Below, one piece after another: positions 7,250 to 30,054 of a stretch of 33,834 bases of DNA. How positions within the stretch are numbered: position 1 is the stretch's first letter; each line of letters opens with the position of its first letter. Source of the DNA: Xanthobacter autotrophicus (lineage in GTDB: Bacteria; Pseudomonadota; Alphaproteobacteria; Rhizobiales; Xanthobacteraceae); assembly GCF_030015065.1 (NCBI RefSeq), contig NZ_JAIVFN010000044.1, forward strand, positions 1 to 33,834, in the 5' to 3' direction. The position numbers and the translations under genes are program-made. The notes beneath the pieces are model-generated. The model was given only the letters and a program-made list of their open reading frames with translations. It had not been told where the DNA came from and searched no databases.

Positions 7250-7266
7250 GTCAACATATCGTTGAC
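7250..7266. promoter_or_regulatory. Perfect operator-like palindrome GTCAAC-N5-GTTGAC
   Basis: Six-base arms at 7250-7255 and 7261-7266 with the 5-base spacer ATATC. It overlaps the -35 hexamer of the TRAP promoter and sits in the divergent gap, so binding should repress the TRAP operon and could also affect the oxoprolinase gene. The best candidate ligand-responsive binder is the MarR-like product encoded at 10419-11006, by proximity only. Confidence 0.6.
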
Positions 7267-7290
7267 AATTTATAGACACATCATGAGAAT
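7262..7290 (+). promoter_or_regulatory. Sigma-70-type promoter of the TRAP operon
   Basis: A perfect -35 TTGACA (7262-7267) is followed after 17 bases by GAGAAT (7285-7290), a 4 of 6 match to the -10 box. The spacing is ideal, and the palindrome at 7250-7266 overlaps the -35, which is typical of a repressible promoter. Confidence 0.5.
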
Positions 7291-7432
7291 GCCATGATCC
7301 GCCGGAGAGCGGGGCGGCACCAGCCGCAAGAGGGGATCCGATGAGACACCAGACCTTCCCGCGCCCGGCGGAAGCCGGTCCATCGCGCCACCCCCGGCGG
7401 CCAGACCTTGCGCGCGCCCTGCGGAGGCTGCC

Positions 7433-7978: not shown

Positions 7979-7981
7979 CCC

Positions 7982-9289
7982 ATGGAAATGATCGAGATTT
8001 CCGGGCTCCTCCTGCTCCTCCTCCTGGGCCTCCTCGCCTCGGGCGTGTGGATCGCCATCGCCCTGCTCGTGGTGGGCTATGTGGGCATGCAGTTCGTCGC
8101 CGGCGGCATCCCGGCCGGCGCCGTGCTCGCCACCACCATCTGGGGCAATTCCGCCTCCTGGACGCTGGCGGCCCTGCCGCTGTTCGTCTGGATGGGGGAG
8201 ATCCTGTTCCGCACCCGCCTGTCGGAGGAGATGTTCCGGGGCCTCGCCCCCTGGCTCAACTGGCTGCCCGGCCGGCTGATGCACGTGAACGTCATTGCCT
8301 GCGGTCTGTTCGGCTCGGTGTCCGGCTCCTCCGCCGCCACCTGTGCCACGGTGGCCAAGATCGCCCTGCCGGAGCTGAAGAAGCGCGGCTATGACGAGAA
8401 TGTCAGCCTCGGCTCGCTGGCCGGTGCCGGCACGCTCGGCATCCTGATCCCGCCGTCCATCACCATGGTGGTCTATGCGGTGGCGGCCAACGTCTCCATC
8501 ATCCAGGTGTTCCTGGCCGGCTTCCTGCCGGGCTTCCTGGTGATGGCGCTGTACAGCGGCTACATCATCGTCTGGTCGCTGCTGAACCCGTCGCGCACCC
8601 CACCCGCCGACCCGCCGCTGCCGTGGCGCGAGAAGCTGAGGGAATCCGCCAACCTCATCCCCGTCAGCCTGCTGATCATCTTCGTCTTCGCCGCGCTTCT
8701 GTTCGGCTGGGCCACGGCGACCGAATGCGCGGCCTGGGGTGTCGCCGGCTCGCTCGCCATCGCCTGGCGGCAGGGCTCCCTGTCCTGGCCGGCCTTCTGG
8801 GCCTCGGTGATGGGCGCGACGCGGCTGACCTGCATGATCATGCTGATCCTCGCCGGCGCTTCCTTCATGTCCACCTCCATGGCCTATACGGGCATCCCGG
8901 TGGCCCTCGCCCAGTGGGTGGACAGCCTCAACCTCTCCCCTTACGCGCTCATCGCCGCGCTCACCGTCATGTACATCGTGCTGGGCACGGCGCTCGACGG
9001 CCTGTCCATGATCGTTTTGACCACCTCGGTGGTGATCCCCATGATCAAGACCGCAGGCTTCGATCCGGTGTGGTTCGGCATCTTCCTGGTGCTGGTGGTG
9101 GAGATGGCGGAGGTGTCGCCGCCCGTGGGCTTCAACCTGTTCGTGCTGCAGACCATGTCGGGCAAGGATTCGAACACGGTGGCCCTCGCTTCCCTGCCGT
9201 TCTTCTTCCTTCTCGTGGCGGCAGTGGCCATCATCACGGTATTTCCGCAGATCGTCATGCTCCTGCCCGAGCTTGCCTACGGAAACTGA
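7982..9289 (+). CDS. dctM: TRAP transporter large permease (DctM family)
   Basis: A 435-residue, very hydrophobic protein of standard DctM length, with about a dozen membrane segments and the family's helical-hairpin regions (for example GSVSGSSAATCATVAKIALPEL split by SGSSAAT, and LGTALDGLSMIVLTTSVV). It carries out sodium-coupled solute movement across the inner membrane. It starts three bases after the dctQ stop, so the two are co-translated. The conserved GAGTLGILIPPSI and PPVGFNLFVL stretches, which form the substrate/sodium region in this family, are intact. The last residues are LPELAYGN. Confidence 0.95.
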   Translation: MEMIEISGLLLLLLLGLLASGVWIAIALLVVGYVGMQFVAGGIPAGAVLATTIWGNSASWTLAALPLFVWMGEILFRTRLSEEMFRGLAPWLNWLPGRLMHVNVIACGLFGSVSGSSAATCATVAKIALPELKKRGYDENVSLGSLAGAGTLGILIPPSITMVVYAVAANVSIIQVFLAGFLPGFLVMALYSGYIIVWSLLNPSRTPPADPPLPWREKLRESANLIPVSLLIIFVFAALLFGWATATECAAWGVAGSLAIAWRQGSLSWPAFWASVMGATRLTCMIMLILAGASFMSTSMAYTGIPVALAQWVDSLNLSPYALIAALTVMYIVLGTALDGLSMIVLTTSVVIPMIKTAGFDPVWFGIFLVLVVEMAEVSPPVGFNLFVLQTMSGKDSNTVALASLPFFFLLVAAVAIITVFPQIVMLLPELAYGN

Positions 9290-12516: not shown

Positions 12517-12569
12517 AGAGAACGCGTTATCCGATCAGCTTGCGATGCAAGCAGATCGGATAACGCTCT
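12517..12569. repeat. Palindromic intergenic repeat, copy 2
   Basis: 18-base arms at 12526-12543 and 12547-12564 match at 17 of 18 positions around a 3-base loop, giving a very stable cruciform or hairpin. Outer AGAG and CTCT bases extend it with a small bulge. It shares the CCGATCAG core and the CGCTC end with the element at 1311-1355. It lies in the gap between the converging phaZ and AcoR-type genes, where it could also act as a shared terminator. The rest of the 221-base gap holds no gene. Confidence 0.6.
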
Positions 12570-14547
12570 AATGACCGCCGCGGCTTCCCCGGGCGGCAAG
12601 ATGGCGGTGCAGCGTGCTGCGGTGGATGCCGAGCCTGCGCGCCGCTTCCGAGACATTGCCTTCGCAGGCGACGAGCGCCGCCTCGATGGTGGCCCGCGTC
12701 ACCGCGCCCAGATCGCGCGCGGCAAGGTCCCGCGCAGCGGCGTCGCCCGGCGCGGCCGGCTGCGGCGATGGCCCCACGGACCGGCGCGCCGCACGCAGTT
12801 CCGCCGGCAGGTCCTCAACCCCCAGGATGTGGCCCGGCTCCGCCAGCGCCTGGAGCACGCGCAGGACACCCACCAGCTGGCGGAAATTGCCCGGCCAGTC
12901 GTGGCCCGCCAGCGCGGCGCGGCACTCGGCAGACAAAGCGGGGGCGTCGGGGCAAGGCCCGGCCAGTTCCGCCCACAGGCGGTCCACCAACACCTCGCGG
13001 TCGGCGAGGGTGCGCAGCGAGGGGAGCATCACCGTATACTGGGCGATGCGGAAATACAGGTCCGCCCGGAAGGCGCCCGCCTCCACCAGCTGCTTCAGGT
13101 CGCGGTGGGAGGCGCAGACCAGGGCGAAGTCCACCGCCACCGGCCGCCCGCCGCCGAGCGGCGTCACCTCGCGTTCCTGAAGCACGCGCAGCAGGCGGCT
13201 CTGGAGCGGGAGCGGCATGTCGCCGATCTCGTCGAGGAACAGCACCCCGCCGTCCGCCTCGCGGAACAGGCCCTTGAAGCCGGCGCGACGGGCACCGGTG
13301 AAGGCGCCTTCCTCATAGCCGAACAGCTCGGATTCGATGAGGCCCTCGGGCAGGGCCGCGCAATTGACCGCCGCGAACGGCCGGGCGCCCCGATTGCCAC
13401 GCCGGTGCATCTGGCGTGCGAACACCTCCTTGCCGACACCGGTCTCGCCCTGGATCAGCACCGGCACGCCGGCTTCCATGAGGCGCACGGCGCGGCCGAG
13501 GTCCCGTTCCGTCGCGGCGTCGAAGCGCGGGCCCGGCGCCGGCGCCACGGGCGGGCGCGCGGGTGCGGGCTGTGGTTCTGCGGGCTGCGGCGCACGCGGC
13601 GAAAGGGTGCGGACCGGCGTGCCCTGACGCTCGAGGCGCATGATCACGTCGCCCCGGCGGGTGCGCACGCGCCGTTCTTCCCCGGCCTTGCCGAGGCTGC
13701 CCTCGAACAGGTCGCCGAAGCGCTTGGCCTCCAGCGCATCCCAGCCGAGGCCGAGCAAGGCAAGGCCCGGGCGGTTGGCGGCGATGAGGCGGTAATCCTC
13801 GAACACGAGGATGCCCTCGCGCGCCGTGCCGAGGAAGCTCGGATCGGCATGGAAGCGCACCAGGCTATGGTCGGGGAAGGCGCCCTCGAACATGCGGTGC
13901 TCCACCTGGCCGGCGGCCAGCTCCACCAGCGCCAGCGCGTGCAGATGCGGCACCGAGGCCGGGCCCGACAGGTCGAGCAGGCCCACCAGCTCTCCGAACG
14001 GATCGTGGATGGGGGCGGCGGCGCAGCTCAAGATACCGTTGGCCTCGGCATAATGCTCCGCCCCGCGCACCTCCACCGGGCGGCGCTCCACCAGCGCAGT
14101 GCCGATGGCGTTGGTGCCGGTCTCGGCCTCACTCCAGCTCACGCCCGGGCGCAGCGCCACCTTGGCGGCGCGGTCGGCGAAGTCGGCGCTACCCACGGTG
14201 TCCAGCACCAGCCCGGACGGATCAGTGAGGATGACGATGCTGTCGGCCGCGCGGGCGGCGGCGTGGAGCGCCTCCAGCTCGGGACGGCAGCGCCGGCGCA
14301 GGGCCTCATGGCGCTCACGCCGGGCGGCGAACTCGCTATCCGTCAACGGCTCCGCCCGCGGACGGGACTGCGGCCCGAGCCCCCGCGCGGCGCAGCGGGT
14401 CCAGGAGCGCAGGATCGGCTGCGCCAGCGCGTCCTCCGCCACCGGCGCGCCGGAGAAGAAGCGGCGGCGGGCCGCAAGGACCGCATCGGTCGAGGCGCAG
14501 GACGACAGTGCAGAGGTCGACACGGCAGGCGTCGGCACAGCAGGCAT
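12568..14547 (-). CDS. AcoR-type sigma-54-dependent transcriptional activator
   Basis: A 659-residue enhancer-binding protein. A GAF-type sensor region covers about 70-200 (with EAETGTNAIGTAL, typical of AcoR-like proteins), followed by a second sensor-like segment and a Pro-rich linker. The AAA+ domain runs from about 345 to 575 with Walker A GETGVGKE (367-374), the sigma-54-contact loop GAFTGA (414-419) and Walker B LFLDEIGD (D439). A Fis-type helix-turn-helix ends the protein (GNVSEAARRLGIHRSTLHRH). It should activate the divergent aldehyde dehydrogenase gene through the -24/-12 promoter at 14760-14775. The family responds to small carbonyls or alcohols such as acetoin and acetaldehyde; the effector here is not known. 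Confidence 0.93.
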   Translation of the reverse strand: MPAVPTPAVSTSALSSCASTDAVLAARRRFFSGAPVAEDALAQPILRSWTRCAARGLGPQSRPRAEPLTDSEFAARRERHEALRRRCRPELEALHAAARAADSIVILTDPSGLVLDTVGSADFADRAAKVALRPGVSWSEAETGTNAIGTALVERRPVEVRGAEHYAEANGILSCAAAPIHDPFGELVGLLDLSGPASVPHLHALALVELAAGQVEHRMFEGAFPDHSLVRFHADPSFLGTAREGILVFEDYRLIAANRPGLALLGLGWDALEAKRFGDLFEGSLGKAGEERRVRTRRGDVIMRLERQGTPVRTLSPRAPQPAEPQPAPARPPVAPAPGPRFDAATERDLGRAVRLMEAGVPVLIQGETGVGKEVFARQMHRRGNRGARPFAAVNCAALPEGLIESELFGYEEGAFTGARRAGFKGLFREADGGVLFLDEIGDMPLPLQSRLLRVLQEREVTPLGGGRPVAVDFALVCASHRDLKQLVEAGAFRADLYFRIAQYTVMLPSLRTLADREVLVDRLWAELAGPCPDAPALSAECRAALAGHDWPGNFRQLVGVLRVLQALAEPGHILGVEDLPAELRAARRSVGPSPQPAAPGDAAARDLAARDLGAVTRATIEAALVACEGNVSEAARRLGIHRSTLHRHLAARGSRGGH

Positions 14548-14578
14548 GTGGGTCCCTCGCTTGGCTTCGCTCCCTGAA

Positions 14579-14605
14579 ACACCTGTCGCATTTTGCTACA
14601 GGTGT
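14579..14605. promoter_or_regulatory. Upstream activator site, 12-base-arm palindrome
   Basis: An inverted repeat from 14579 to 14605 with 12-base arms (one mismatch) and a 3-base centre; the outer ACACCTGT/ACAGGTGT arms are perfect. It lies 155 bases upstream of the sigma-54 promoter and 32 bases from the AcoR-type start codon, the expected place for an enhancer that also allows autoregulation. Confidence 0.65.
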
Positions 14606-14759
14606 CGCAGCTCTTGTTCTTATGTGCGCCAGTCTGGCACGACTATTCGCTTCCCGTCCAGCGGACGTTCCGGCAAGGCTTGGCGGCCGCCAGCAAAATC
14701 AAGACAGGCCAGCATCTTCCCGCAGCGCAAATAAAGTCGTTTGGATACCCTGCAAGATC

Positions 14760-14775
14760 TGGCACGGGCGCTGCA
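14760..14775 (+). promoter_or_regulatory. Sigma-54 (-24/-12) promoter of the aldehyde dehydrogenase gene
   Basis: TGGCACG (14760-14766), four bases, then CTGCA (14771-14775) places the invariant GG and GC exactly as sigma-54 requires. Transcription would begin at about 14786, leaving a short leader with GGGAGGG before the ATG at 14810. The divergent sigma-54 activator gene supports it. Confidence 0.8.
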
Positions 14776-14809
14776 CACCATCTGCCGCATCAACCCTCGG
14801 GAGGGAACA

Positions 14810-16330
<1,521 letters not shown>

Positions 16331-16354
16331 GCGCGGCTTCTTCCAGGAGCGGGG

Positions 16355-16378
16355 GCTGCCGGCGCGGGGGCCGGCAGC
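16355..16378 (+). terminator. Hairpin after aldehyde dehydrogenase gene
   Basis: GCTGCCGGC (16355-16363) pairs with 16370-16378 around a 6-base loop, 24 bases after the stop codon. Only a pyrimidine-rich stretch, not a T-run, follows. It is a probable terminator for the aldehyde dehydrogenase transcript. Confidence 0.5.
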
Positions 16379-16569
16379 ATCCTTCCCTTGCCCCCCTCCC
16401 GGGGCATCTCGCCGGAGGCGGTCTTCGCCAACCCGCGCCGGGAGACATGAATGGATGGCCTGGGCTTGTCCCCGCTCCGGCCCTCCGTCTCCCGCCGCCT
16501 CCGGTCTTTTCTTTTCGTTCCGCGTTTCTCAACCCGCGCGAAGGATGGAGGCCGACAGTCATGGCTTGC

Positions 16570-16600
16570 GCCGCAGACCCGTTTCCCCCGGGTCTGCGGC
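16570..16600 (-). terminator. Perfect 11-base-pair hairpin after the hyf operon
   Basis: 16570-16580 is perfectly complementary to 16590-16600 with a 9-base loop. It lies 26 bases beyond the hyfI stop and between converging genes, so it probably ends the hyf transcript. There is no T-run on either strand. Confidence 0.5.
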
Positions 16601-16626
16601 GTCGGCGTTTGCACGCCGGTCCCGGC

Positions 16627-17139
16627 TCAATCCCTGCCGGCGCGCAGCAGCGCGAGAAGGCCGGTGAGCAGCGCCAGGGGCGTCGGCGGGCAGCCGGGTA
16701 TCCTGAGGTCCACCGGCAGCACGGCCTCCACGCCGCCGGCGCAGGCATAGCCGCCGGCGAAGACGCCGCCAGTGATGGCGCAGTCGCCGGCCGCCACCAC
16801 CCATTTGGGCGCGGGCGTCGCGTCGTAGGTGCGCTTCAGCGCCTCGGCCATGTTCTTCGCCACCGGCCCGGTCACCAGCAGCACGTCCGCATGGCGGGGC
16901 GAGGCGACGAAATGGAGGCCGAAGCGCTCCAGGTCGTAGAAGGCATTGCCCAGCGCGTGGATCTCCAGCTCGCAGCCGTTGCACGAGCCCGCATCCACCT
17001 CGCGGATGGACAGGCTGCGCCCGAGCCGCGCCCGAGCCGCCGCATTGAGCTCGGCGGCGAGCTGTTCCACCGCCACGTCTTCCGGAGCGGCCTCCGTGAG
17101 GGGGGCTTTCAGCAGCCCTTGGAGCAGGAGCTTGCGCAT
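16627..17139 (-). CDS. hyfI: HyfI/NuoB-like iron-sulphur small subunit of the Hyf-type complex
   Basis: A 170-residue member of the NuoB/hydrogenase-small-subunit family. All four cysteines for a 4Fe-4S cluster are present: C53 and C56 (SCNGCELE), C120 (GDCAITGG) and C150 (PGCPPTP). In related complexes this cluster passes electrons between the catalytic large subunit and the redox chain at the membrane. It is shorter than the E. coli protein (about 250 residues), lacking its C-terminal extension. The ATG at 17139 is chosen because it is 8 bases after the hyfG stop and begins the conserved part; the upstream open frame is unconserved. It is the last gene of the operon. Confidence 0.9.
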   Translation of the reverse strand: MRKLLLQGLLKAPLTEAAPEDVAVEQLAAELNAAARARLGRSLSIREVDAGSCNGCELEIHALGNAFYDLERFGLHFVASPRHADVLLVTGPVAKNMAEALKRTYDATPAPKWVVAAGDCAITGGVFAGGYACAGGVEAVLPVDLRIPGCPPTPLALLTGLLALLRAGRD

Positions 17140-17147
17140 GATGGCCC

Positions 17148-18656
17148 CTAGAGATCCACGCCCGAATAGGAGCAGTTGAAGGATTTGTTGCAGAGGGGGA
17201 AGTCGGCGACGATGTTGCCCTCGATGGCGGTTTCCAAAAGCGGCCACTGGAACCAGGACGGATCACGCAGATGCGCACGCCGCACGCGTCCGTCCGCCGC
17301 CAGCGCCACGAAGGCCAGCACGTCGCCGCGGAAGCCCTCCACCACCGCAAGGCCCTCTCCGGGACCTGCCGGAATCTCGGTCGCGACCGGGCCGTCGGGC
17401 AGGGTATCGAGCAGGCGGACCACGAGGCCGAGGCTCTCCTCCACCTCGCGGATGCGCACCCAGATGCGCGCGTTCACGTCGCCCTCGGGCCGCACCGCCA
17501 CCTCGAACGGCAGGCGGTCATAGGGGGGATAGGCGAAGGCCCGCCGCGCATCGAAGGGACGGCCGGAGGCGCGGCCCACATAGCCGCCCGCCCCGAACTG
17601 GCGGACGTAATCCGGCCGGGTGAAGCCGGTGCCCACGGTGCGGTCCTGCAGCGAGGCGGTGTTGTCGTAGAGCTCCACCAGCGCCGGGAAGGCGGCGCGC
17701 ACCTCGGACACCAGCACGCGGATGGCCGAGATGCCGTCGCGCGCCAGATCCACCGCCACCCCGCCGGGGATGACGCCATCCATCATCAGGCGATGGCCGA
17801 AGGCGCGCGCAGACACGCGCAGCACCTTCTCGCGCAGCACGCCGCAATGGGCCAGCATCAGCGCAAAGGCGGCATCGTTGCAGATGGCGCCGATGTCGCC
17901 GAGATGGTTGGCAAGGCGCTCCAGCTCCGCCATCACCCCGCGCAGGGCATGGGCCCGCGCCGGCACGGCGACGCCGCGCGCCGCCTCCACCGCGCGGCAG
18001 AAGGCCAGCGCATAGGCCACCGTGCTGTCGCCGGACTGGCGCCCGGCAAGCCGCGCCGCCTGCGCCACGTCCGCGCCGGCCACCAGGCGCTCGATGCCCT
18101 TGTGCACGTAGCCGAGGCGCTCCTCCAGCCGCACCACCGCCTCGCCATAGCAGGAGAAGCGGAAATGGCCGGGCTCGATGATGCCAGCATGGACCGGGCC
18201 CACCGGGATCTGGTGCAGCCCCTCCCCTTCCGCGGCAAGGAAGGCATAAGTATCGCCCGCCGGTTCCGCCGGCAGGGGAGTCCCCAGCGGATGGCGCACG
18301 CCCCAGCGGCCATGGTCGAGCCAGGCGCGATCGTCGGGAGCGCCCTCGGGCACCAGGCCATAGAGGTCGCGCACGGTGCGCTCCAGCCTTGCTGCCGGCG
18401 GGTGATGGCGCGCCACCGAGGGGAACGCGCCGCCGGCGCAGGCATAGGTGGCCACGGCCAGCCGGCCGGCCGCCTCGTCCAGCAGCGCCATGTGCACGGC
18501 GCCCGCATCGCCCCACAGGCCCATGAGCACCAGATCGCCGGCCGCCAGATGCCCGGCGAGGGCCGTCCACTGCTCCGCGCTCACCTCGCCGCGCGGGAAG
18601 GGGCGGCAGGGGCCGGCGCGGCGGCCGCTTTCCAGAAGCTGTGCGAAGCTCTCCAT
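17148..18656 (-). CDS. hyfG: HyfG-like large subunit lacking NiFe-centre cysteines
   Basis: A 502-residue protein: a NuoC-like domain at about 25-125 and a NuoD/hydrogenase-large-subunit domain from about 150. Aligned by eye with HycE/HyfG, the N-terminal nickel motif R-x-C-G-x-C reads R206-Q-S208-G-D-S211, so both Cys are Ser. The C-terminal motif C-x-x-C keeps C495 but has S498. A NiFe centre is therefore very unlikely, and no C-terminal extension for protease processing is present. The fold otherwise looks whole (HQIPVGPVHAGIIEPGHFRF, the typical domain start, is intact). It likely holds a catalytic or quinone-like site of unknown chemistry. Its start is 9 bases after the hyfF stop. Confidence 0.9.
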   Translation of the reverse strand: MESFAQLLESGRRAGPCRPFPRGEVSAEQWTALAGHLAAGDLVLMGLWGDAGAVHMALLDEAAGRLAVATYACAGGAFPSVARHHPPAARLERTVRDLYGLVPEGAPDDRAWLDHGRWGVRHPLGTPLPAEPAGDTYAFLAAEGEGLHQIPVGPVHAGIIEPGHFRFSCYGEAVVRLEERLGYVHKGIERLVAGADVAQAARLAGRQSGDSTVAYALAFCRAVEAARGVAVPARAHALRGVMAELERLANHLGDIGAICNDAAFALMLAHCGVLREKVLRVSARAFGHRLMMDGVIPGGVAVDLARDGISAIRVLVSEVRAAFPALVELYDNTASLQDRTVGTGFTRPDYVRQFGAGGYVGRASGRPFDARRAFAYPPYDRLPFEVAVRPEGDVNARIWVRIREVEESLGLVVRLLDTLPDGPVATEIPAGPGEGLAVVEGFRGDVLAFVALAADGRVRRAHLRDPSWFQWPLLETAIEGNIVADFPLCNKSFNCSYSGVDL

Positions 18657-18665
18657 GGCGCGCCC

Positions 18666-20126
18666 CTAGCCCAATAGCCCGGCCACGTGCCGGAACCACG
18701 CCACCAGCGGCGGCGGCAGATAGAGCCCGGCCACCAGCACCAATGTCAGATGCACCGCCATGGGCAGATAGCTCGCCTTCACCTTGTCGCTGCCGGGGCT
18801 GGGGGCGCCGAAGGCGATGCCGGAGAGCTTCGCCATCAGCGCGCCGAAGGCAAGGAGCAGCCCCGCCACCAGCGGCAGGGCGAGCCAGGGCCGATGCGCG
18901 AAAGCGGAGGTCACCAGCAGGAACTCGCTCATGAACACGCCGGCCGGCGGCAGGCCGGCAATGGCCGCCACCGCCACCACGAGCCCCCAGCCCAGCGCCG
19001 GGTGGGAGGTGGTGAGGCCGCGGATGTCGGCGAGCTTCTGCGTGCCCTTCACCTGGCACACATGGCCCACCGCGAAGAAAATGGCCGACTTGGTGAGGCT
19101 GTGCATGGTCATGTGCAGCAGCCCGGCGAAATTGGCGACGGGCCCGCCGAGCCCGAAGGCGAAGGCGATGAGGCCCATATGCTCGATGGAGGAATAGGCG
19201 AACAGCCGCTTGATGTCCCGCCGCCGGTACAGCATGAAGCCGGCGAGCAGCAGCGAGGCGAGGCCCATGGCCATCATCAGCGGCCCCGGCGCCAGCGTGC
19301 CGGGATGGGCCGCCATCAAGAGCTTGAAGCGCAGCACCGCATAGAGCGCCACGTTGAGCAGCAGCCCCGACAGCACCGCCGAGATGGGGGTGGGGCCTTC
19401 CGAATGGGCATCGGGCAGCCACGCATGGAGCGGAGCAAGGCCCACCTTGGTGCCGTAGCCGAGCAGCAGGAACACGAAGGCGACGTTGAGCAGCGCCGGG
19501 TCGAAATCCCGCGCGCGCTTCATCAGCACGCTCCAGATCATGCCGTCCGGTCCCTCGCCCACCACCGGCTGGGCCACCATGTAGACGAGGATGGTGCCGA
19601 ACAGCGCGAGCGCGATGCCCACCGAGCCCAGCATGAAATATTTCCACGCCGCCTCGATGGCCGCCTCGGTGCGATAGAGGCCCACCATCAGCACGGTGGT
19701 GAGGGTCGCCACCTCGATAGCCACCCACATGACGCCGAGATTGTTGGAGAGCAGAGCCAGGTTCATGGCCGCCAGCAGCGCCTGGTACATGGCGTGGTAG
19801 AAGCGCAGGTGCAGCGGCGTGAGGCGCCCGGTCTCCAGTTCGTGGCCGATGTAGCTCGCCGAGAACACGCTGGTGGTGAAGGCCACGAAGGTGTTCAGCA
19901 CCACGAACACGATGTTGAGGTCGTCCACGATCAGGAACGGCCCGGCGATGCGCGGCGCCATCAGCAGCGCCAGGGCGGTGAGGAACGTCAGGGCGCAGGC
20001 GCCCACGTTCAGGGCGGCCGAGACCCGATAGGACGGGACCAGCGCCAGCAGCACCGCCGCGGCAGCCGGGATGGCGAGGATGACCGGCGCGGGATCGAAC
20101 GGCAGCGCCGCGAGGGCGGTCATCAT
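18666..20126 (-). CDS. hyfF: HyfF-like antiporter-type membrane subunit
   Basis: A 486-residue polytopic protein of the NuoL/M/N-Mrp antiporter family, with about 13-14 hydrophobic helices. Residues needed for proton transfer are present: E138 in WVAIEVATL and K227 in GYGTKVGLAPLHAWLPDAHSE-like sequence, as well as the central SSIEHMG stretch. The start at 20126 overlaps the hyfE stop as ATGATGA; a second ATG at 20123 is equally possible, while the open frame further upstream is simply overlap with hyfE. It would form one ion channel of the membrane arm. It is somewhat shorter than E. coli HyfF (about 526 residues), mainly at the C-terminus. Confidence 0.92.
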   Translation of the reverse strand: MMTALAALPFDPAPVILAIPAAAAVLLALVPSYRVSAALNVGACALTFLTALALLMAPRIAGPFLIVDDLNIVFVVLNTFVAFTTSVFSASYIGHELETGRLTPLHLRFYHAMYQALLAAMNLALLSNNLGVMWVAIEVATLTTVLMVGLYRTEAAIEAAWKYFMLGSVGIALALFGTILVYMVAQPVVGEGPDGMIWSVLMKRARDFDPALLNVAFVFLLLGYGTKVGLAPLHAWLPDAHSEGPTPISAVLSGLLLNVALYAVLRFKLLMAAHPGTLAPGPLMMAMGLASLLLAGFMLYRRRDIKRLFAYSSIEHMGLIAFAFGLGGPVANFAGLLHMTMHSLTKSAIFFAVGHVCQVKGTQKLADIRGLTTSHPALGWGLVVAVAAIAGLPPAGVFMSEFLLVTSAFAHRPWLALPLVAGLLLAFGALMAKLSGIAFGAPSPGSDKVKASYLPMAVHLTLVLVAGLYLPPPLVAWFRHVAGLLG

Positions 20127-20803
20127 GCGCGCCCTCCCCGGAAGCGGTCGAGGGCGTCCACGTCCACGGTGTCGAACCGCTCGCGGATGCGGAACAGGAA
20201 GATGCCGATGACGATGAAGGCGATGAGCACGGAGAAGGCCACCGAGATCTCCACCACCAGCGGCATGCCCCTGGCCCCCGTGGCGGCGAGGATGAGGCCG
20301 TTCTCCAGCGACATGAAGCCCACCACCTGGCTCACCGCATTGCGCCGCGTCACCATCATCAGGAGGCCCAGCAGCACTACCGAGAGGGCGAAGGCGAGGT
20401 CCTCCCGCGCCAGCGCGTCGGCAGCGGGGGTGGCCTTGAGCATTACCACCATGGACAGGGCGACCAAGGCGATGCCGGCGAGCATGGTGGGGCCGGTGGC
20501 GACCACCGTCTCCACCTCCCGGTGGATGCCGAGCCGCGCCACCATGCGGTGCAGCGCCACCGGGATCACCAGCGCCTTGAACACGAGGGCGATGAACGCG
20601 GTGAGGTAGAGGTGCGGCGCGTCCTGGGCGTAGGCCTGCCATGCCACCGCCAGCGCCAGAGCCACCGCCTGGAGCGCGAACACGTTGAGGAGGGCGTAGA
20701 GCCGGTCCTGGTAGAGCATCAGGAAGGAAATGAGCACCAGCGCGCCGGCGAACAGGTGGGCGACGTCGAAGACGAGGTTGGGGGTGATGGCGTGCTCGAT
20801 CAT
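20123..20803 (-). CDS. hyfE: HyfE-like (NuoK-related) membrane subunit
   Basis: A 226-residue membrane protein with about six or seven hydrophobic helices, matching E. coli HyfE in length (216). The first segment (HLFAGALVLISFLMLYQDRLY) and the later ENGLILAATGARGMPLVVE stretch, with an acidic residue in a membrane helix at the NuoK-like position, are characteristic. It would link the two antiporter-like subunits to the core. The ATG at 20803 shares a base with the hyfC stop (TGATG), indicating translational coupling. The C-terminal tail is charged and cytoplasmic (RIRERFDTVDVDALDRF). Confidence 0.9.
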   Translation of the reverse strand: MIEHAITPNLVFDVAHLFAGALVLISFLMLYQDRLYALLNVFALQAVALALAVAWQAYAQDAPHLYLTAFIALVFKALVIPVALHRMVARLGIHREVETVVATGPTMLAGIALVALSMVVMLKATPAADALAREDLAFALSVVLLGLLMMVTRRNAVSQVVGFMSLENGLILAATGARGMPLVVEISVAFSVLIAFIVIGIFLFRIRERFDTVDVDALDRFRGGRA

Positions 20804-21756
20804 CACAGGATCCCCGACACGAACAGCAGCAGCGTTCCCAAAAGCCCGAGCATCAGCGCGGCGCCGAGGAAGTCGGGCACGCGGAACACCCGCATCTTGG
20901 CGATGGAGGTCTCGAACACGGCGACCAGCAGCGCCCCCACCGCGAGCTTGCCGCCATAGGTCGCCATGCCCAGCACCATCGCGGAGGGACCCGCCCCCAC
21001 CGGAGCAAGGCCCCACGGCACGAACACGCAGGCGACGAGGGAGAGGAACAGCAGCAGCTTGAGCTGTGCCGCCAGTTCGATCAGCGCCAGGTGACGGCCG
21101 GAATATTCCAGCACCATGGCCTCGTGCACCATGGTCAGCTCCAGGTGGGTGGAGGGATTGTCCACCGGGATGCGGCCATTCTCCGCCACCGCCACCATGA
21201 GCAGCGCCACCAGCGCCAGCGCCAGCGACACCCTGAGGCCCACGCCCGCCAGCATCACCGAGGCGATGGTGGACAGCTGGGTCGAATGGGCGACAAGGGC
21301 GAGGGAGAACACGATCATGATCATGGCCGGCTCGGCGAGGGAGGAGATCATCACCTCCCGGCTCGATCCGAGGCCGCCGAAGCTGGTGCCCACATCCATG
21401 CCGGCCAGCGCCAGGAAGAAGCGCGCCGAGCCGATGAGGGCGGTGATCGCGATGAGGTCCGCCGACCAGGAGAAGATCAGCCCGGTGGCGAAGGTGGGCA
21501 CCAGCGCCGCCGCCACCCAGGTGGCCGCGAACACGAGATAGGGCACCACGCGGAACAGCCAGGAGGCGTTCTCGGCCAGCACCACCTCCTTGCGCATCAG
21601 CCGCGCCAGATCGCGATAGGGCTGGAGGACGGAGGCGCCCCGGCGGCGCGTGAGGCGCGCCTTCGCCTTGCGCACCAGCCCGGTCAGGAGCGGGGCGAGG
21701 GCGAGCACCAGAAGCATCTGCGTGCCCTGCACGAGGAGGTTCGCCATCAGGTCCAT
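20803..21756 (-). CDS. hyfC: HyfC/NuoH-like membrane anchor subunit
   Basis: A 317-residue protein of the NuoH/HycD family with about eight membrane helices. The family's cytoplasmic loops are seen: RRGASVLQPYRDLARLMRKE after helix 1, and the acidic AENGRIPVDNPSTHLELTMV stretch that in complex I lines the quinone chamber and couples redox change to pumping; the Glu and Asp residues of that stretch are kept. Start: the ATG at 21756 overlaps the hyfB end by ten bases; an ATG at 21747 would give a TGATG overlap like that of hyfE and a protein three residues shorter. Neither has a strong ribosome site, which fits coupled translation. Confidence 0.93.
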   Translation of the reverse strand: MDLMANLLVQGTQMLLVLALAPLLTGLVRKAKARLTRRRGASVLQPYRDLARLMRKEVVLAENASWLFRVVPYLVFAATWVAAALVPTFATGLIFSWSADLIAITALIGSARFFLALAGMDVGTSFGGLGSSREVMISSLAEPAMIMIVFSLALVAHSTQLSTIASVMLAGVGLRVSLALALVALLMVAVAENGRIPVDNPSTHLELTMVHEAMVLEYSGRHLALIELAAQLKLLLFLSLVACVFVPWGLAPVGAGPSAMVLGMATYGGKLAVGALLVAVFETSIAKMRVFRVPDFLGAALMLGLLGTLLLFVSGIL

Positions 21757-23792
21757 AGGGCGAGCACCAGAAGCAGCAGCACCAGGGCCGAGAAGACGAG
21801 GCCCAGATACTGGCGGATGGTGAGGTATTGCAGCTTGTTCGCCCGCTCGGCCACGGCGCCCACCGCCGCCGTCAGCGGCAGGAACAGGAAGGCCCAGGCC
21901 GGGTCCCGCGCACTGGTCGAGATGCGGGCGGGGGTGAGCGCGCCGGGGGGCGGCATCTCCACCGTCTCGCGGGCCGCGAACAGGCCACGCGCGAACACGC
22001 GACGGATGGGCTGGGCGAAGGAGGCGGCGGAATATTGCGCCAGCGGGCTGGCATTGGGGAAGCCGCAATCCCACGGCGGCGCCCGCCGCACCGCGCGCGA
22101 GGCGAAGCGGTGGATGACGACCGCGGCGATGAGCGCCGACACCGCCGAGAAGCCGAACACCAGCAGCGCATTGTAGGAACTGCGGCTCTCCGCCACCGGG
22201 ATGATGGAGAGCCACGCCACGGACCTCTGGGACGGCATGGTCTCGCCGATGAGGCCCGCCACCGCCGGCTGGAGCGCGTCGATGAAGAGGCCCGGCAGCA
22301 GGCCCGCGCCCACGCACACCGCGGCGAGCGCGATCATGGCGGCACGGGAGAAGGCGTCCACCTCGTGGGCCTCGGCCGCGTTGGGGCTGCGCGCCCGGCC
22401 GAGGAAGGCGATGCCGTAGAGCCGCACGAAGCAGGCGGCGGCGAGCGCGGCGGCGAGCGCCATCAGCGCGCCGACCGCCGGCACCATCAGCCGCAGCCCC
22501 CAGGCCGGCAGGTCCGGGCTCAGCAGCACCGCCTGGAACACCAGCCATTCCGAGGCGAAGCCGTTGAGCGGCGGCAAAGCCGAGATGGCGGCGCAGCCGA
22601 TCAGCATCACCGCGCTGGTCACCGGCATGCGGTGGATGAGGCCGCCCAGGTCCTCCATCTGCCGCGTGCCGGTGGCGGTGAGCACCGCGCCGGCGCCGAA
22701 GAACAAAAGGCTCTTCATGGCCGCGTGGTTGAGCACATGGAACAGGGCGGCGGTGAGCGCCAACGCCGCGGCGGCGGGAAAGCCGTTGGCCGAGAAGGCG
22801 AGCGCCAGCCCGAGGCCGACGAAGACGAGGCCGATATTCTCGATGGTCGAATAAGCGAGCACGCGCTTGATGTCGTTCTGCAGCAGCGCCTGCAGCACGC
22901 CGATCACCGCCGCGACGCCGCCGGCCGCCAGCACCGGGATGCCCCACCACCAGTCGGGCGGCCCCGAGAGGTCGAGCACGATGCGGATGAAGCCGTAGAC
23001 CGCCACCTTGGTCATCACGCCGCTCATGAGGGCGGAGACGTGGCTGGGCGCGGCAGGATGGGCCAAAGGCAGCCAGACATGCAGCGGCACCAGGCCCGCC
23101 TTGGAGCCGGCCCCCAGCATGGCGAGCGCCAGCACCAGCGCGGCGGCGATGCCCACAGGCGGCGCCTCGCGCATGGCGTCGAAGGCATAGCCGCCCCCGG
23201 AGCCGGCGGCGAGCAGGCCGAAGGCCAGCATCAGCGCCAGCGTGCCGAAGGACGCCATGAGGATGTAGACGAGGCCGGCGCGCACATTGCCCGCCTCCTT
23301 GTCGTGGGCCACCACCAGAGCCCATGACGCCAGCGACATGAACTCCCAGGACAGGAGGAAGGTGTAGGCGTCGTCCGCCAGCAGCACCATGTTCATGCCG
23401 GCAAGGAAGGCCGGGAAGAAGGGCAGCACGCGCGCGGGCGCATGGTCGTGCCTGCCGTAGCCGAGGCCGTAGAGGCTGGCCGCCGCGCCGCCGAGATTGA
23501 CCACGGCGAGGAAGAAGGCGGAGAGCGCATCGAGCCGCAGGTGCGCCCCGATCCACGGAATGCCCAAGGGCAGCACGATCCCGGCCGGCGGCGCCGCGAT
23601 GGCTGTGAGCGCGGACAGGCCGGCCACCAGCGTCACCGCCAGCGCGCCGCCATAGATGAGGGACCGGCCCGCGGGGCGGCTTGCCATCGCCACCCCGAGC
23701 AGGCCCAAGGCCAGCAACGCCACCACGGCGACGAGGGCGACGAGGAGCTGGCCGTTCAGGAGAAGCCGGGTGGCGAAGGCGGCCTCGGACAT
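21747..23792 (-). CDS. hyfB: HyfB-like (NuoL-type) antiporter membrane subunit
   Basis: A 681-residue protein, close to E. coli HyfB (672), with about 15 hydrophobic segments. It carries the antiporter-family residues E150 (LLSWEFMSLASW), K231 (GAGSKAGLVPLHVWLP) and K262 (SGVMTKVAVYGF), so ion translocation looks feasible. A long C-terminal part after about 540 includes the DCGFPNASPLAQYSAASFA segment typical of HyfB/HycC. It begins three bases after the stop of the XRE-type regulator gene and overlaps hyfC, so the operon is translated as a unit. Confidence 0.94.
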   Translation of the reverse strand: MSEAAFATRLLLNGQLLVALVAVVALLALGLLGVAMASRPAGRSLIYGGALAVTLVAGLSALTAIAAPPAGIVLPLGIPWIGAHLRLDALSAFFLAVVNLGGAAASLYGLGYGRHDHAPARVLPFFPAFLAGMNMVLLADDAYTFLLSWEFMSLASWALVVAHDKEAGNVRAGLVYILMASFGTLALMLAFGLLAAGSGGGYAFDAMREAPPVGIAAALVLALAMLGAGSKAGLVPLHVWLPLAHPAAPSHVSALMSGVMTKVAVYGFIRIVLDLSGPPDWWWGIPVLAAGGVAAVIGVLQALLQNDIKRVLAYSTIENIGLVFVGLGLALAFSANGFPAAAALALTAALFHVLNHAAMKSLLFFGAGAVLTATGTRQMEDLGGLIHRMPVTSAVMLIGCAAISALPPLNGFASEWLVFQAVLLSPDLPAWGLRLMVPAVGALMALAAALAAACFVRLYGIAFLGRARSPNAAEAHEVDAFSRAAMIALAAVCVGAGLLPGLFIDALQPAVAGLIGETMPSQRSVAWLSIIPVAESRSSYNALLVFGFSAVSALIAAVVIHRFASRAVRRAPPWDCGFPNASPLAQYSAASFAQPIRRVFARGLFAARETVEMPPPGALTPARISTSARDPAWAFLFLPLTAAVGAVAERANKLQYLTIRQYLGLVFSALVLLLLVLALWT

Positions 23793-23795
23793 GGC

Positions 23796-24083
23796 CTATT
23801 CCTCCCCCGCCGGGCGCCACGCGGACCCGGGCGGCGGGACACGCAGGCGCACGCCGCGTCCGCCGCCGGCCTCGCTGACGGCACCTTCGCCGATGAGCTC
23901 GACGCCCGCCGCCTCCAGCCCGCCCACCAGCTTCATGAGCGAATCCACATTGCCGCGGATGACGCCGTCGCTCGCTTCCATGCGCTGGATGGTGGGCAAG
24001 GAGAGGCCGCTCAAGGCCGCGAGCGCGCGCTGGTCCAGGCCGAGAAGGGCCCGGGCGGCGCGAAGCTGGGCGGCAGTGATCAT
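23796..24083 (-). CDS. XRE-family HTH regulator, first gene of the hyf operon
   Basis: A 95-residue protein with a single Cro/CI-type helix-turn-helix at about 5-60: ARALLGLDQRALAALSG forms the first helices and SLPTIQRMEAS the recognition helix. A short Gly/Arg/Pro-rich tail follows. The ATG at 24083 is preferred; a TTG at 24092 is also in frame. No good ribosome site is visible before either. Its stop lies three bases before hyfB, so regulator and complex are made together. The perfect palindrome at 24156-24178, 73 bases upstream of its start, is the likely operator, making it a probable autorepressor or activator of the hyf operon. Confidence 0.85.
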   Translation of the reverse strand: MITAAQLRAARALLGLDQRALAALSGLSLPTIQRMEASDGVIRGNVDSLMKLVGGLEAAGVELIGEGAVSEAGGGRGVRLRVPPPGSAWRPAGEE

Positions 24084-24155: not shown

Positions 24156-24178
24156 TTATGATGTACAGGACATCATAA
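24156..24178. promoter_or_regulatory. Perfect palindrome upstream of the hyf operon
   Basis: TTATGATGT (24156-24164) and ACATCATAA (24170-24178) form a perfect 9-base-arm inverted repeat with a 5-base centre, in an unusually AT-rich patch. Further ATCATT/ATCACT copies lie just beside it (24140-24155). It is the best operator candidate for the XRE-type regulator. No convincing -35/-10 pair could be assigned. Confidence 0.6.
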
Positions 24179-24292: not shown

Positions 24293-24952
24293 TCACGCCT
24301 CGCGGATGTCGTTGGCCGCGCGGGCGAGGATCTCGACGATCCGCGTCTCGGCGCCGCGATTGGCCTCCAGCTTCTGCTGGGACACGTCCCGCAGGTTCTC
24401 GAGGGCGGCTTCCACGAGGCGGGGCAGCTCGGCGCCTTGGCTCGGGCCGCTCTCGCTCCAGCCCATCCACTTGCGCACCCGGCCCATCCTGAGGCCGATC
24501 TCCGACAGGCGTCCGATGATGGCATCGGCGAAGTCGCGGTTCTCGGCGAGATGGGTGCGGCCCTCCTCGGTGATGGCATAGCGCTTCTTCGCACCGTCCG
24601 CCTCCGAGGTCACGTAGCCGGTCTCCTCCAGGAAGGTGAGGGTCGGATAGACCACGCCCGGGCTCGGCGAATACCAGCCCGCGGTCTTCTCCTCGATCAC
24701 CTTGATGATCTCGTAGCCGTGCCGCGGCTGCTCTGCGATGAGCGACAGGGCCAGCAGCTTCAGGTCGCCCTGCGCCAGCATGCGGCCGATGCGGAACATG
24801 TCACCGCCGCCCCGTCCGCCACGGCCGCCACCGCGATGGCCGCCGAATTCCCCGCCGCGGCCCGGGCCGCCGGCATGCCGCATCTCGTCCCAGTCCCCCC
24901 GCTGGCCGCGTTCGCCGCCATGGTGTCCGTCACGTCTGCATCCAAACATCAT
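24293..24952 (-). CDS. PadR-family regulator, YqjI-like, with Gly/His-rich N-terminus
   Basis: A 219-residue protein. Residues 1-50 are rich in Gly, His and Arg with one Cys (C5, H10, H11, H26, H39), followed by a PadR winged helix at about 60-135: DLKLLALSLIAEQPRHGYEI, then YSPSPGVVYPTLTFLEE, then the wing with KKRYAITEEG. A C-terminal helical region would dimerise. The whole arrangement resembles E. coli YqjI, a nickel-responsive repressor with a metal-binding N-terminal extension. AGGAGA precedes two adjacent ATG codons (24952 and 24949). The palindrome at 24993-25008 is a likely autoregulatory operator. The neighbouring divergent gene is not the usual ferric reductase partner. Confidence 0.9.
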   Translation of the reverse strand: MMFGCRRDGHHGGERGQRGDWDEMRHAGGPGRGGEFGGHRGGGRGGRGGGDMFRIGRMLAQGDLKLLALSLIAEQPRHGYEIIKVIEEKTAGWYSPSPGVVYPTLTFLEETGYVTSEADGAKKRYAITEEGRTHLAENRDFADAIIGRLSEIGLRMGRVRKWMGWSESGPSQGAELPRLVEAALENLRDVSQQKLEANRGAETRIVEILARAANDIREA

Positions 24953-24992
24953 TCGTCTCCTAAGATATGTCGTAAGATACAACGATACGGTT

Positions 24993-27183: not shown

Positions 27184-28587
27184 TCACATGTGGATGGCGC
27201 GCTTTTCCACGGCCATGGCCGCTTCCTTCACCGCTTCCGAGCGGGTGGGATGGGCATGGCAGGTGCGGGCGAGGTCTTCCGACGAGCCGCCGAACTCCAT
27301 GAGCACGGCGCATTCGTGGATCATCTCGCCGGCCTCGGGGCCGATGATGTGGGCGCCCAGCACCTTGTCGGTGGCGGCGTCCGCAATGATCTTCACGAAG
27401 CCGTCCGTGGTGTTGTTCACCTTGGTGCGGCCGTTGGCGGTGAAGGGGAACTTGCCCACCTTGTAGGCCACGCCCGCGGCCTTCAGGTCGTCCTCGGTCT
27501 TGCCGACCGACGCCACCTCCGGGAAGGTGTAGACCACGCCGGGGATCACGTCATAGTTCACGTGCCCGGCCTTGCCGGCCAGCAGCTCCGCCAGCGCCAC
27601 GCCCTCATCCTCGGCCTTGTGGGCGAGCATGGGGCCGACGATCACGTCGCCGATGGCATAGATGCCCGGCACGTTGGTGGCGAAGTGATGGTCCGTGACC
27701 ACCCGGCCACGCGGGTCCTTGGCGACGCCGGCCTCTTCGAGGCCGAGGCCCGCGGTATAGGGAATGCGGCCGATGGCCACCAGCACCACGTCCGCCTCGA
27801 TCACCTCGGCCGCGCCACCGGCCGCCGGCTCCACCGACACCTTCAGGGTCTTGCCCGAGGTGTCCACACCGGTGACCTTGGTGCCGAGCTTGAAGGCGAA
27901 GCCCTGCTTGTCGAGGATGCGCTGGAAGCTCTTGGCCACGTCGCTGTCCATGCCGGGCAGGATGCGGTCGAGGAATTCCACCACCGTCACCTGCGCGCCG
28001 AGGCGGCGCCACACCGAGCCCAGCTCCAGGCCGATGACGCCGGCGCCCACCACCAGCAGCTTGCCCGGCACCTTCGGCAGCGACAGCGCGCCGGTGGAGG
28101 AGACGATGCGCTGCTCGTCGATGGTCACGCCCGGCAGCGGCGCCACGTCCGAGCCGGTGGCGATGACGATGTTCTTGGTCTCCAGCACCTCGACCTTGCC
28201 GTCGGCGTTCAGTGTCACCTCGACCTTGCCGGTGCCGAGGATCTTAGCCACGCCCATATAGACGTCGACCTTGTTCTTCTTCAGCAGGAACTCGACGCCC
28301 TTCACATTGCCGTCCACGCCCTTGTCCTTGAAGGCGAGCATGGCCTTCAGGTCGAGCTTGGGGGCCGGGACGCCGATGCCCATCTCGCCGAACTTGTGGC
28401 CGGCTTCCTCGAACAGCTCGGAGGCGTAGAGCAGCGCCTTCGAGGGGATGCAGCCCACATTGAGGCAGGTGCCGCCATGGGTGCCGCGCTTCTCCACCAC
28501 GGCCACCTTGAGGCCGAGCTGGGCCGCGCGAATGGCACACACATAGCCGCCGGGGCCGGTACCGATGACGGTGAGATCGTAGGACAT
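27184..28587 (-). CDS. lpd: Dihydrolipoyl dehydrogenase (E3)
   Basis: A 467-residue flavoprotein disulphide reductase that reoxidises dihydrolipoyl groups with NAD+, as E3 of the 2-oxoglutarate dehydrogenase complex and perhaps of others. Features: the FAD-binding [17 protein letters not shown] at 9-25, the redox-active pair C41/C46 in [12 protein letters not shown], a second NAD-binding [12 protein letters not shown], and the dimer-interface acid-base pair H446/E451 in HAHPTRSE. Length is normal. It is the last gene of the sucA-yciI-sucB-lpd series, 240 bases after sucB with a hairpin between, so its expression may be partly separate. Confidence 0.97.
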
Positions 28588-28790
28588 CGCTTTAGTCTCC
28601 GGACCTCAAGTAAAGCCGCCGCCCATGATCCGGGACCGCATCAATGACGCGTCCGACCGACCGGCTCCATTCGAGGTGATTTAAGTCCACTTCCAAGCCC
28701 GGGAGGCTGGAACCTTGGTTGCGTGGCGCCGCACGTTCAAGCCGCCGCACCGGTCGAGGCAGTCGGTTTCGGCAGGGTCCCGAAGAACCG

Positions 28791-28816
28791 GGAGCCCGCT
28801 TTGTGGAGCGGGCTCC
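28791..28816 (-). terminator. Hairpin between sucB and lpd
   Basis: GGAGCCCGCT (28791-28800) is perfectly complementary to 28807-28816 around a 6-base loop. It lies 12 bases past the sucB stop codon. The following bases on the minus strand are CGGTTCTTCGGG, without a long T-run, so termination may be partial, reducing read-through into lpd. The rest of the 240-base gap shows no gene. Confidence 0.55.
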
Positions 28817-28827
28817 TGGCACGATCC

Positions 28828-30054
28828 TCACAGATCCAGCACGAGCCGCGCGGGATCCTCCAGGGTCTCCTTGACGCGCACCAGGAAGGTCACGGCCTCG
28901 CGGCCGTCGACGATGCGGTGGTCGTAGGAGAGGGCGAGGTACATCATGGGGCGGATCACCACCTGGCCCTTGATGGCCACCGGGCGCTCCTCGATGCGGT
29001 GCATGCCGAGGATGCCCGACTGCGGCGCATTGAGGATGGGGGTGGACATCAGCGAGCCGTAGATGCCGCCATTGGTGATGGTGAAGGTGCCGCCCTGCAT
29101 CTCCTCGATGCCGAGCTTGCCGTCGCGCGCCTTCTTGCCGAAGCCGGCGATGGCCTTCTCGATCTCCGCCACCGAGAGCTGGTCGGCGTCACGCACCACC
29201 GGAACCACGAGGCCCTTCTCGGTGCCCACCGCGATGCCGATGTTGTAGTAGTTCTTGTAGACGAGGTCCTGGCCGTCGATTTCGGCATTCACCGCGGGCA
29301 GGTCCTTCAGGGCGGCGATGACCGCCTTGGTGAAGAAGCCCATGAAGCCGAGCTTGGTGCCGTGCTTCTTCTCGAACGCATCCTTGAACTGGGCGCGCAG
29401 GCTCATCACGGCGGTCATGTCCACGTCGTTGAACGTGGTGAGCATGGCCGCGGTATTCTGCGCATCCTTCAGGCGCCGCGCGATGGTCTGGCGCAGCTTG
29501 GTCATCTTGACCCGCTCCTCGCGCACCGCATCGCCGGGGACCGAGGGCGCGCGCGCCGCGACCGGGGCGGCAGCGGGAGCAGCGGCGGCGCCGGCTGCGA
29601 TGGCGGCCAGCATGTCACCCTTGGTGACGCGGCCATCCTTGCCGGAACCGGCGACGCCCGACGGATCAACGCCGCCCTCGGCGGCGATGCGGCCCACGGC
29701 CGGGCCGTTGGCGCCGGACGCGGCAGCAGCGGCAGGCGCCGCAACGGGAGCCGGCGCAGGGGCCGCAGCGGCGGGAGCCGGAGCGGCGGCGGCGGGAGCC
29801 GGAGCGACAGCGGCACCGTCGCCGCCGATGGAGCCGAGCAGGGCGCCGACGCCCACCGTGTCGCCGTCCTTGGCCACGATCTCGGCCAGGACGCCTGCGG
29901 CGGGAGCGGGCACCTCGACCGTCACCTTGTCGGTCTCGAGCTCCACCAGCGGCTCATCGGCCTTGACGGCATCGCCGGGCTTCTTGAACCACTTGCCGAT
30001 GGTCGCCTCGGTAACGGACTCGCCCAGGGTGGGCACGCGGATCTCGGTGGTCAT
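28828..30054 (-). CDS. sucB: 2-oxoglutarate dehydrogenase E2, dihydrolipoyl succinyltransferase
   Basis: A 408-residue E2 that transfers succinyl groups to CoA. The lipoyl domain is at 1-76 with the lipoylated K43 in ETDKVTVE. An Ala/Pro linker follows at about 80-115. A peripheral subunit-binding domain lies at about 117-155 ([26 protein letters not shown]). A second Ala/Pro linker precedes the catalytic domain at about 175-408. The active site has H379 and D383 in SYDHRIVDG. Length matches E. coli SucB (405). A single lipoyl domain is usual for this enzyme. Its start follows the YciI-family gene by 27 bases. Confidence 0.97.

Follow-up and report, generated by a model that had tools for sequence, protein, structure and literature searches.

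The window analysed here, a stretch of 33,834 nucleotides from Xanthobacter autotrophicus (NCBI RefSeq assembly GCF_030015065.1, contig NZ_JAIVFN010000044.1, positions 1 to 33,834), carries a hyq operon. In it a regulator gene precedes the genes of a minimal complex-I-like machine of six subunits, and the large subunit of this machine, HyqG, is without the four nickel-ligand cysteines of [NiFe] hydrogenases. As judged from the residues at these positions, HyqG is unable to hold a normal NiFe centre. The label "hydrogenase" is unsafe for this operon, and we tentatively suggest that Hyq may be an oxidoreductase that pumps ions, receives its electrons from a soluble carrier by way of one [4Fe-4S] cluster and is probably linked to quinone. 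The gene set is that of the hyqRBCEFGI operon described in Azorhizobium caulinodans (PMC2650096), a match that a first-pass annotation of this DNA had left out. The seven genes are closely packed, running on the minus strand between 24083 and 16627 in window sequence free of any N, with the following features:

23796..24083, minus strand: hyqR, operon gene 1, small XRE-type helix-turn-helix regulator (Pfam HTH_3 above cut-off; homologues lie upstream of hyqB in other loci)
21747..23792, minus strand: hyqB, HyfB/NuoL-type antiporter subunit, 681 aa (NF005086, 867.5 bits against a cut-off of 667; most key Glu/Lys/His kept)
20803..21747, minus strand: hyqC, HyfC/HycD/NuoH-type membrane anchor, 314 aa (PF00146, 128.4 bits; E-channel Glu mostly kept)
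20123..20803, minus strand: hyqE, HyfE-type membrane subunit, 226 aa (81.8 bits with NF008556, short of the cut-off of 136)
18666..20126, minus strand: hyqF, HyfF/NuoM-type antiporter subunit, 486 aa (NF005043, 876.2 bits against a cut-off of 533)
17148..18656, minus strand: hyqG, NuoC-NuoD fusion, hydrogenase-large-subunit homologue without nickel ligands, 502 aa (PF00346 and PF00329 above cut-off)
16627..17139, minus strand: hyqI, small subunit with one [4Fe-4S] cluster and hydrogenase-type CxxC spacing, 170 aa (PF01058, 112.7 bits; alignment with HycG, HyfI and NuoB)
18174..18176, minus strand: HyqG E161, invariant, at the position of HycE Glu193 and MbhL Glu21, the proton-transfer Glu (alignment; roles from PMC9474812 and PMC7684303)
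18024..18041, minus strand: HyqG R206-Q-S-G-D-S211, in place of R-x-C-G-x-C (alignment)
17160..17177, minus strand: HyqG N494-C-S-Y-S-G499, in place of HycE D-P-C-Y-S-C (alignment)
24159..24175, minus strand: palindrome TGATGTCCTGTACATCA, a candidate operator for HyqR, 92 bases upstream of the hyqR start

The six HyfB/C/E/F/G/I-type subunits listed by the first-pass annotation are thus all encoded, on the minus strand and in the order B, C, E, F, G, I; hyqR and its upstream palindrome had been overlooked.

HyqG has lost all four nickel ligands

Conservation was read from 110 HyqG sequences, namely the window, the best 80 of 566 relatives (E up to 1e-3) and 29 of the 33 non-window matches from a survey of the window's class (387 genomes, among them the window's own), in which hyqG was scored as present at E 1e-100 or better. 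One pair in this set is identical, and taking the best 80 of 566, some with non-alphaproteobacterial titles, biases conservation upward; the other four survey matches, those in G028 and G149 and a second copy each in G045 and G072, are outside the set. The closest HyqG relative among the best 80 of 566 is that of Xanthobacter agilis (70% identity).

Of the proteins with solved structures, HyqG matches the profile of the Escherichia coli formate hydrogenlyase large subunit HycE (7z0s_E) most closely, at E 2.2e-79, with Pyrococcus MbhL at 2.9e-47 and the best complex I chain at 9e-44, and 7z0s_E is also the best fold match of its model. PF00374 scores 24.5 bits in the window search, just under its cut-off of 25.8, and 26.3 bits, just over it, in the genome search. 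The four HycE cysteines C241, C244, C531 and C534, all of them nickel ligands (the literature passage found names C531), fall opposite S208, S211, S496 and G499 in an alignment that is gapless across both motifs. At the C-terminus D-P-C531-Y-S-C534-T-D-R aligns with N494-C495-S496-Y497-S498-G499-V-D501-L, placing C495 opposite Pro530; a HMMER alignment to 7z0s_E gives the same register, and one to MbhL (6cfw_L), which ends with N494 facing an Asp, agrees with this. The reading of C495-x-x-S498 as a CxxC motif is ruled out by this alignment. The first-pass annotation had read the letters of both motifs correctly in the 502-residue protein, and its conclusion that no NiFe centre is possible is borne out; having set C495-S-Y-S498 one residue out of register, as the C-terminal CxxC, it counted three ligands as lost where all four are.

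Cysteine occurs at no ligand position in 115 sequences, the 110 HyqG and five more distant relatives. Among the 110, S208 and G499 are invariant, S211 is kept in 107 (Ala in three) and S496 in 109 (Thr in one). This recurrence excludes the sequencing error that had been named as a possible refutation, and the gapless register at both motifs contradicts the other sequence-level one, intact Cys ligands elsewhere in HyqG. Moreover, HyqG stops one residue past D501, while HycE continues for 33 residues past D536, so that there is no C-terminal tail for a maturation protease. Neither mark of a group 4 [NiFe] hydrogenase is thus found, with S208, S211, S496 and G499 in place of the four ligand cysteines and the Hyp maturation gene hypD present in the window's own genome but in only 11 of the 32 genomes with hyqG.

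The absence of either Cys pair from HyqG was already reported in 2012, when a NiFe site was called "uncertain, if not unlikely" and three other HyqG cysteines, in eight genera, completely conserved (PMC3357923). The corresponding window residues, matched by number and spacing and not by direct alignment to C258, C491 and C497 of that paper, are C259, C489 and C495. They are Cys in 108, 109 and 106 of the 110 sequences, and in two, one and none of the five more distant relatives; C489 is Ile in one locus (L078) and C495 is Gly in four (L006, L018, L113 and L116). A three-Cys metal site is ruled out, the residues being substituted in some clear orthologues. In the alignment the C259 position is Cys in HycE as well, where it is not among the nickel ligands.

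The vacated site is remodelled and conserved

The high conservation of the residues around the site in the 110 sequences, 15 of the 26 inspected being identical throughout, argues that the site has been remodelled and conserved and has not decayed. E161 (HycE E193, MbhL E21), R443 (the canopy Arg, HycE R478) and H251 (HycE H284) are identical in 110/110 and E404 (HycE E437) in 109/110, the roles of the proton-transfer Glu and canopy residues being those given in PMC9474812 and PMC7684303. D210, D261, N490, K491 and N494 are polar, invariant and not shared with HycE; D485, S492, Y497 and D501, also invariant, are common to both proteins, and HycE D192 is replaced by I160. The AlphaFold model of HyqG has pLDDT below 50 at 145-185, 482-490 and 492-502, which takes in both active-site loops, and was not used for geometry.

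In a tree, HyqG and its distant relatives separate with 100/100 support from Hyc/Hyf, CooH-like and NuoD sequences, with long branches flagged and an arbitrary root. The reference groups in this tree, of the kind proposed at first pass, were Hyc/Hyf, CooH-like and NuoD, with no named Ehr sequence among them.

Small and membrane subunits

The remaining subunits keep most of the residues that were compared. HyqI has four cluster cysteines with the hydrogenase-type CxxC spacing, and these are present in all 78 relatives with a HyqI match among the 80 loci. Residues that map onto HycC are HyqB E150, K262, K360 and E415 and HyqF E138, K346 and E401, and those that map onto HycD are HyqC E131, E139, E189, E203 and E209; the exceptions are HyqF N258 (HycC K239), HyqB Q378 (HycC D354) and HyqC S199 and H201 (HycD E199 and E201). 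The earlier statement that the NuoB-type cluster cysteines are intact therefore stands, and that on the antiporter Glu/Lys residues holds for the most part. Standard models name two Hyq subunits hydrogenase 4 and one NuoB, and in HyqB and HyqF the name "hydrogenase 4 subunit B/F" is given above cut-off, much as the first-pass annotation had warned. The B-C-E-F-G-I order is kept in 62 of the 64 relatives with sufficient flank (64 of the 80 best-relative loci).

Distribution among genomes

In the 387-genome survey hyqG occurs in 32 genomes. A nifH match above cut-off was found in 12 genomes, six of them with hyqG (Fisher p 1e-4), and hypD in 27, of which 11 have hyqG (Fisher p 1e-6); these tests, like the other genome associations, take in neither genome size nor relatedness. 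The absence of a nifH match from 26 of the 32 hyqG genomes and of a hypD match from 21 indicates that nitrogenase and NiFe assembly are dispensable in those hosts. The own genome of the window has no nifH over cut-off; it carries hypD and genes for NiFe large subunits, all on contigs other than that of the window. The published link of hyq to nitrogen fixation is therefore not general, and the statement that hyq is generally absent from non-diazotrophs (PMC2930871) fails in this sample.

NuoD is above cut-off in 31 of the 32 hyqG genomes and COX1 is matched in 30, which suggests that Hyq is accessory in respirers that mostly bear an oxidase. The 2-oxoacid:ferredoxin oxidoreductase (POR) gamma domain is found in 31/32 hyqG genomes and in 228/355 others (p 4e-5, uncorrected for genome size). 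One host, a 0.9 Mb genome (G143; locus L136, G143:C21:4000-17400) with 34% G+C around hyq, has hyq and MenA but nothing above cut-off for NuoD, and COX1, bd oxidase, nifH and hypD are all unmatched in it. This combination points to quinone, and Hyq may be the only complex-I-like enzyme of that organism.

HyqR, its candidate operator and neighbouring genes

The palindrome TGATGT-N5-ACATCA, with up to one mismatch, lies upstream of 14 of 42 operon-linked hyqR genes against 0.0 expected (50 Markov resamples), a figure that overstates independence, since the loci are related and the pattern was picked from the same upstream regions in which it was counted. The 14 best matches place it 71-118 bases upstream of hyqR, and it is likely, on sequence grounds, to be the operator of the XRE regulator HyqR. 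In eight Bradyrhizobium loci (L020, L033, L035, L041, L046, L047, L052 and L053), at around 12.1-12.7 kb of each, a second hyqR-like gene lies on the opposite strand just past hyqI; the gene after it belongs to cluster 9.

The A. caulinodans operon is reported to be NifA-dependent. A scan of 44 hyqR upstream regions from 42 loci, made without a positive control, found no close sigma54 site (the best candidate has four mismatches), and TGT-N10-ACA in four regions, none of them upstream of hyqR in the window. On that scan, NifA control as a general rule is doubtful.

Homology clustering of open reading frames (ORFs) of at least 90 aa in the 110 loci and the window, 30 of these loci being only 3.1-4.6 kb long and shorter ORFs left out, gave hyqR as the only conserved neighbour. 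A frame with two CxxCxxCxxxC motifs, as in NuoI or HyfH, occurs in 3 of 64 loci, never inside the operon, and nowhere in the window.

Upstream of hyqR in the window is a PadR-family regulator gene (24293-24982, minus strand), outside the conserved neighbour set. Downstream of the operon (12568-16330) lie an acetaldehyde dehydrogenase gene (ExaC, NF050026 above cut-off, plus strand) and then a sigma54 activator gene (minus strand); ORFs clustering with both (clusters 19 and 25) also adjoin hyq in Xanthobacter agilis (L004, 15240-18985). Farther out in the window are a 1253-aa fused hydantoinase/oxoprolinase A and B gene (3446-7207), dihydrolipoamide-dehydrogenase-type and 2-oxoacid dehydrogenase E2 genes (27184-30054) and a 984-aa ORF (30433-33387). 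In Methylovirgula sp. HY1 (L134) an F1Fo-type ATP synthase operon (1681-8243) lies immediately upstream of a plasmid-borne hyq, and a formaldehyde-activating enzyme gene (16215-16733) downstream of it. A plasmid of Rhodococcus sp. WAY2 (L127, 2990-10278) carries a hyq-like cluster in which the NuoB-type gene is shifted to the front and the HyqG ligand positions are without Cys; the Mycobacterium tuberculosis locus presumably resembles this cluster.

Discussion

Hyq of the window agrees with that of A. caulinodans (Ng 2009, Sprecher 2012) in gene content and order including hyqR, in its six subunits, in the fused NuoC/NuoD HyqG and in the absence of the Cys pairs, as far as can be told from descriptions, the A. 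caulinodans sequence itself being outside the compared loci. It differs in its host, which is without nifH over cut-off, and the scan above showed no close sigma54 site or TGT-N10-ACA before its hyqR. With the E. coli formate hydrogenlyases (HycE/HyfG; 7z0s) it shares the best profile and fold match and the proton-transfer Glu, canopy Arg, His284 and Glu437 positions, but has no nickel ligands, canopy Asp, C-terminal tail, HyfA, HyfD or HyfH. Respiratory complex I has the same NuoB/C/D/H/L/M-type cores; unlike it, the hyq operon encodes no NADH module or NuoI. The sulfane sulfur reductase MBS is likewise a group-4 relative in which the NiFe function is lost, whereas HyqG keeps the MbhL-E21-type Glu and HyqI all four cluster cysteines. 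Finally, "Ehr" in the usage of PMC10284858 is close to group 4f and lacks the CxxC motifs; compared by description (PMC10284858, PMC6349859), its nearness to group 4, missing CxxC motifs and antiporter-like subunits fit Hyq, and the earlier likening to a cysteine-less, Ehr-like complex holds to that extent.

The mechanism that we infer is as follows. HyqBCEF would pump or exchange ions, driven by electrons that pass the single [4Fe-4S] cluster of HyqI. At one end of the electron flow, a small substrate, most likely quinone, would occupy the former NiFe cavity, which would now be polar (S208, D210, N490, K491, N494, S496 and Y497, with E161 and R443 kept). At the other end, ferredoxin or flavodoxin, as a soluble carrier of low potential, is proposed to dock directly on HyqI, since no NuoI/HyfH-like two-cluster subunit was found. 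Hyq would be accessory to complex I and might run in either direction, from reduced carrier to ion gradient or from gradient to a lower electron potential.

A number of observations weigh against this proposal. Where complex I has the His and Tyr of its quinone site, HyqG has I160 and G209; N494 replaces the canopy Asp (D529 in HycE, D458 in complex I) in 110/110 sequences, and HyqI does not have the tandem Cys of cluster N2. The low pLDDT of both active-site loops leaves a quinone site without geometric support, and no conserved redox partner adjoins the operon. The ferredoxin oxidoreductase association may be a genome-size effect alone, and the 0.9 Mb host is the sole hyqG genome without a POR domain match. 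Another host (G082) has hyq and NuoD with neither COX1 nor bd oxidase. The co-occurrence of hyqG with nifH and hypD above chance also speaks against any clean separation from them. Most directly, hyq-dependent H2 uptake and evolution have been reported in vivo in A. caulinodans (PMC2650096, PMC2930871, PMC3357923), and strains from which the whole 20-gene hup/hyp operon was deleted are reported to recycle H2 fully, both in culture and in nodules (PMC2930871); the latter raises the weight of an H2 role and lowers that of our proposal.

On the reading of its discoverers, Hyq, the "endo-hydrogenase" of A. caulinodans, would be an H2:quinone oxidoreductase, here with an H2-activating site other than NiFe(Cys)4, which we consider unlikely. 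The phenotypes of the A. caulinodans ΔhyqRI7 strains are large: in Table 2 of PMC3357923, H2 evolved at 20 μM O2 is 540 in Δhyq Δhup against 16 in Δhup, and below 1 μM O2 it is 14,000 against 61,000. Rhodocista centenaria, with hyq and without hup/hyp, is also stated to recycle H2 fully, from data not presented in PMC2930871. If that paper is right, oxidation of H2 goes on in the absence of NiFe maturation, in keeping with the missing ligands; E161 and R443 are kept in all HyqG, and half of the 12 nif genomes have hyqG. Nevertheless, the deletion extends from the start of hyqR through the stop of hyqI (PMC2650096), so that effects of regulator and enzyme are confounded, Table 2 has no nifK Δhyq strain, and a cell-free uptake assay was "not at hand" (PMC3357923). 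A search for the term "complement" in the available text of PMC2650096, PMC2930871 and PMC3357923 gave no complementation of the deletion, only primer or PCR uses in one of them. A literature search thin on subscription journals turned up no later paper with Hyq as its subject, and PMC3826726 and PMC5573673, as far as available, merely cite the 2009 paper. Operon-dependent H2 activity, which the first-pass annotation had set as a refutation of its view, is thus claimed for an orthologue with these reservations. Against an H2 role also stand the four lost ligands, the Asn at the canopy Asp, the missing cleavable tail, the incomplete conservation of the three cysteines named in 2012 and the 26 of 32 hosts without nifH. 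A non-hydrogenase role is the more likely, although we do not treat the in vivo phenotype as disproved. That the genetics and the sequence are both right, Hyq exchanging H2 with the quinone pool without a NiFe, FeFe or Fe site of known kind and also without hyp genes, is quite unlikely.

By analogy with MBS, Hyq might instead be a reductase or oxidase of some other small polar compound, acting either in the cavity or at the HyqI cluster, which seems somewhat unlikely. The polar, conserved HyqG site would suit it, and MBS is a group-4-like complex that has lost NiFe and acts at the proximal cluster; however, MBS is without the key Glu (MbhL E21) and has one cluster Cys displaced (PMC7684303), whereas the Glu is present in 110/110 HyqG and HyqI keeps its CxxC. 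The mostly intact antiporter-type subunits, with no redox partner adjoining the operon, would also be compatible with a redox-gated ion exchanger or sensor, in which the HyqGI head merely sets the antiporter state without substrate turnover. Such strong conservation of the site makes this very unlikely, and to our knowledge characterised members of the superfamily all turn over a substrate. That Hyq is a NiFe hydrogenase of the usual kind with its ligands at other positions, or a pseudo-enzyme in decay, is scarcely credible: hypD and NiFe large subunits do occur on other contigs of the own genome, but the register is gapless at both motifs, which are near-invariant in 110 sequences, the six-gene order is intact in nearly all loci with sufficient flank, and most hyqG genomes have no hypD match.

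Hyq is a real, conserved and already described family, to which the window adds one more member, from a host without nifH. What is new here is the corrected ligand map, hyqR with its probable operator, and a distribution in which Hyq stands apart from nitrogenase and from NiFe maturation in the majority of the hosts sampled. Hyq is widespread in the window's class, and H2 metabolism is possibly over-predicted from matches of its subunits to hydrogenase 4 and NuoB models. The conflict between the missing NiFe site and the published H2 phenotypes has stood since 2012; if H2 exchange without a known metal site were true, Hyq would be a new hydrogenase class in the shell of an old one.

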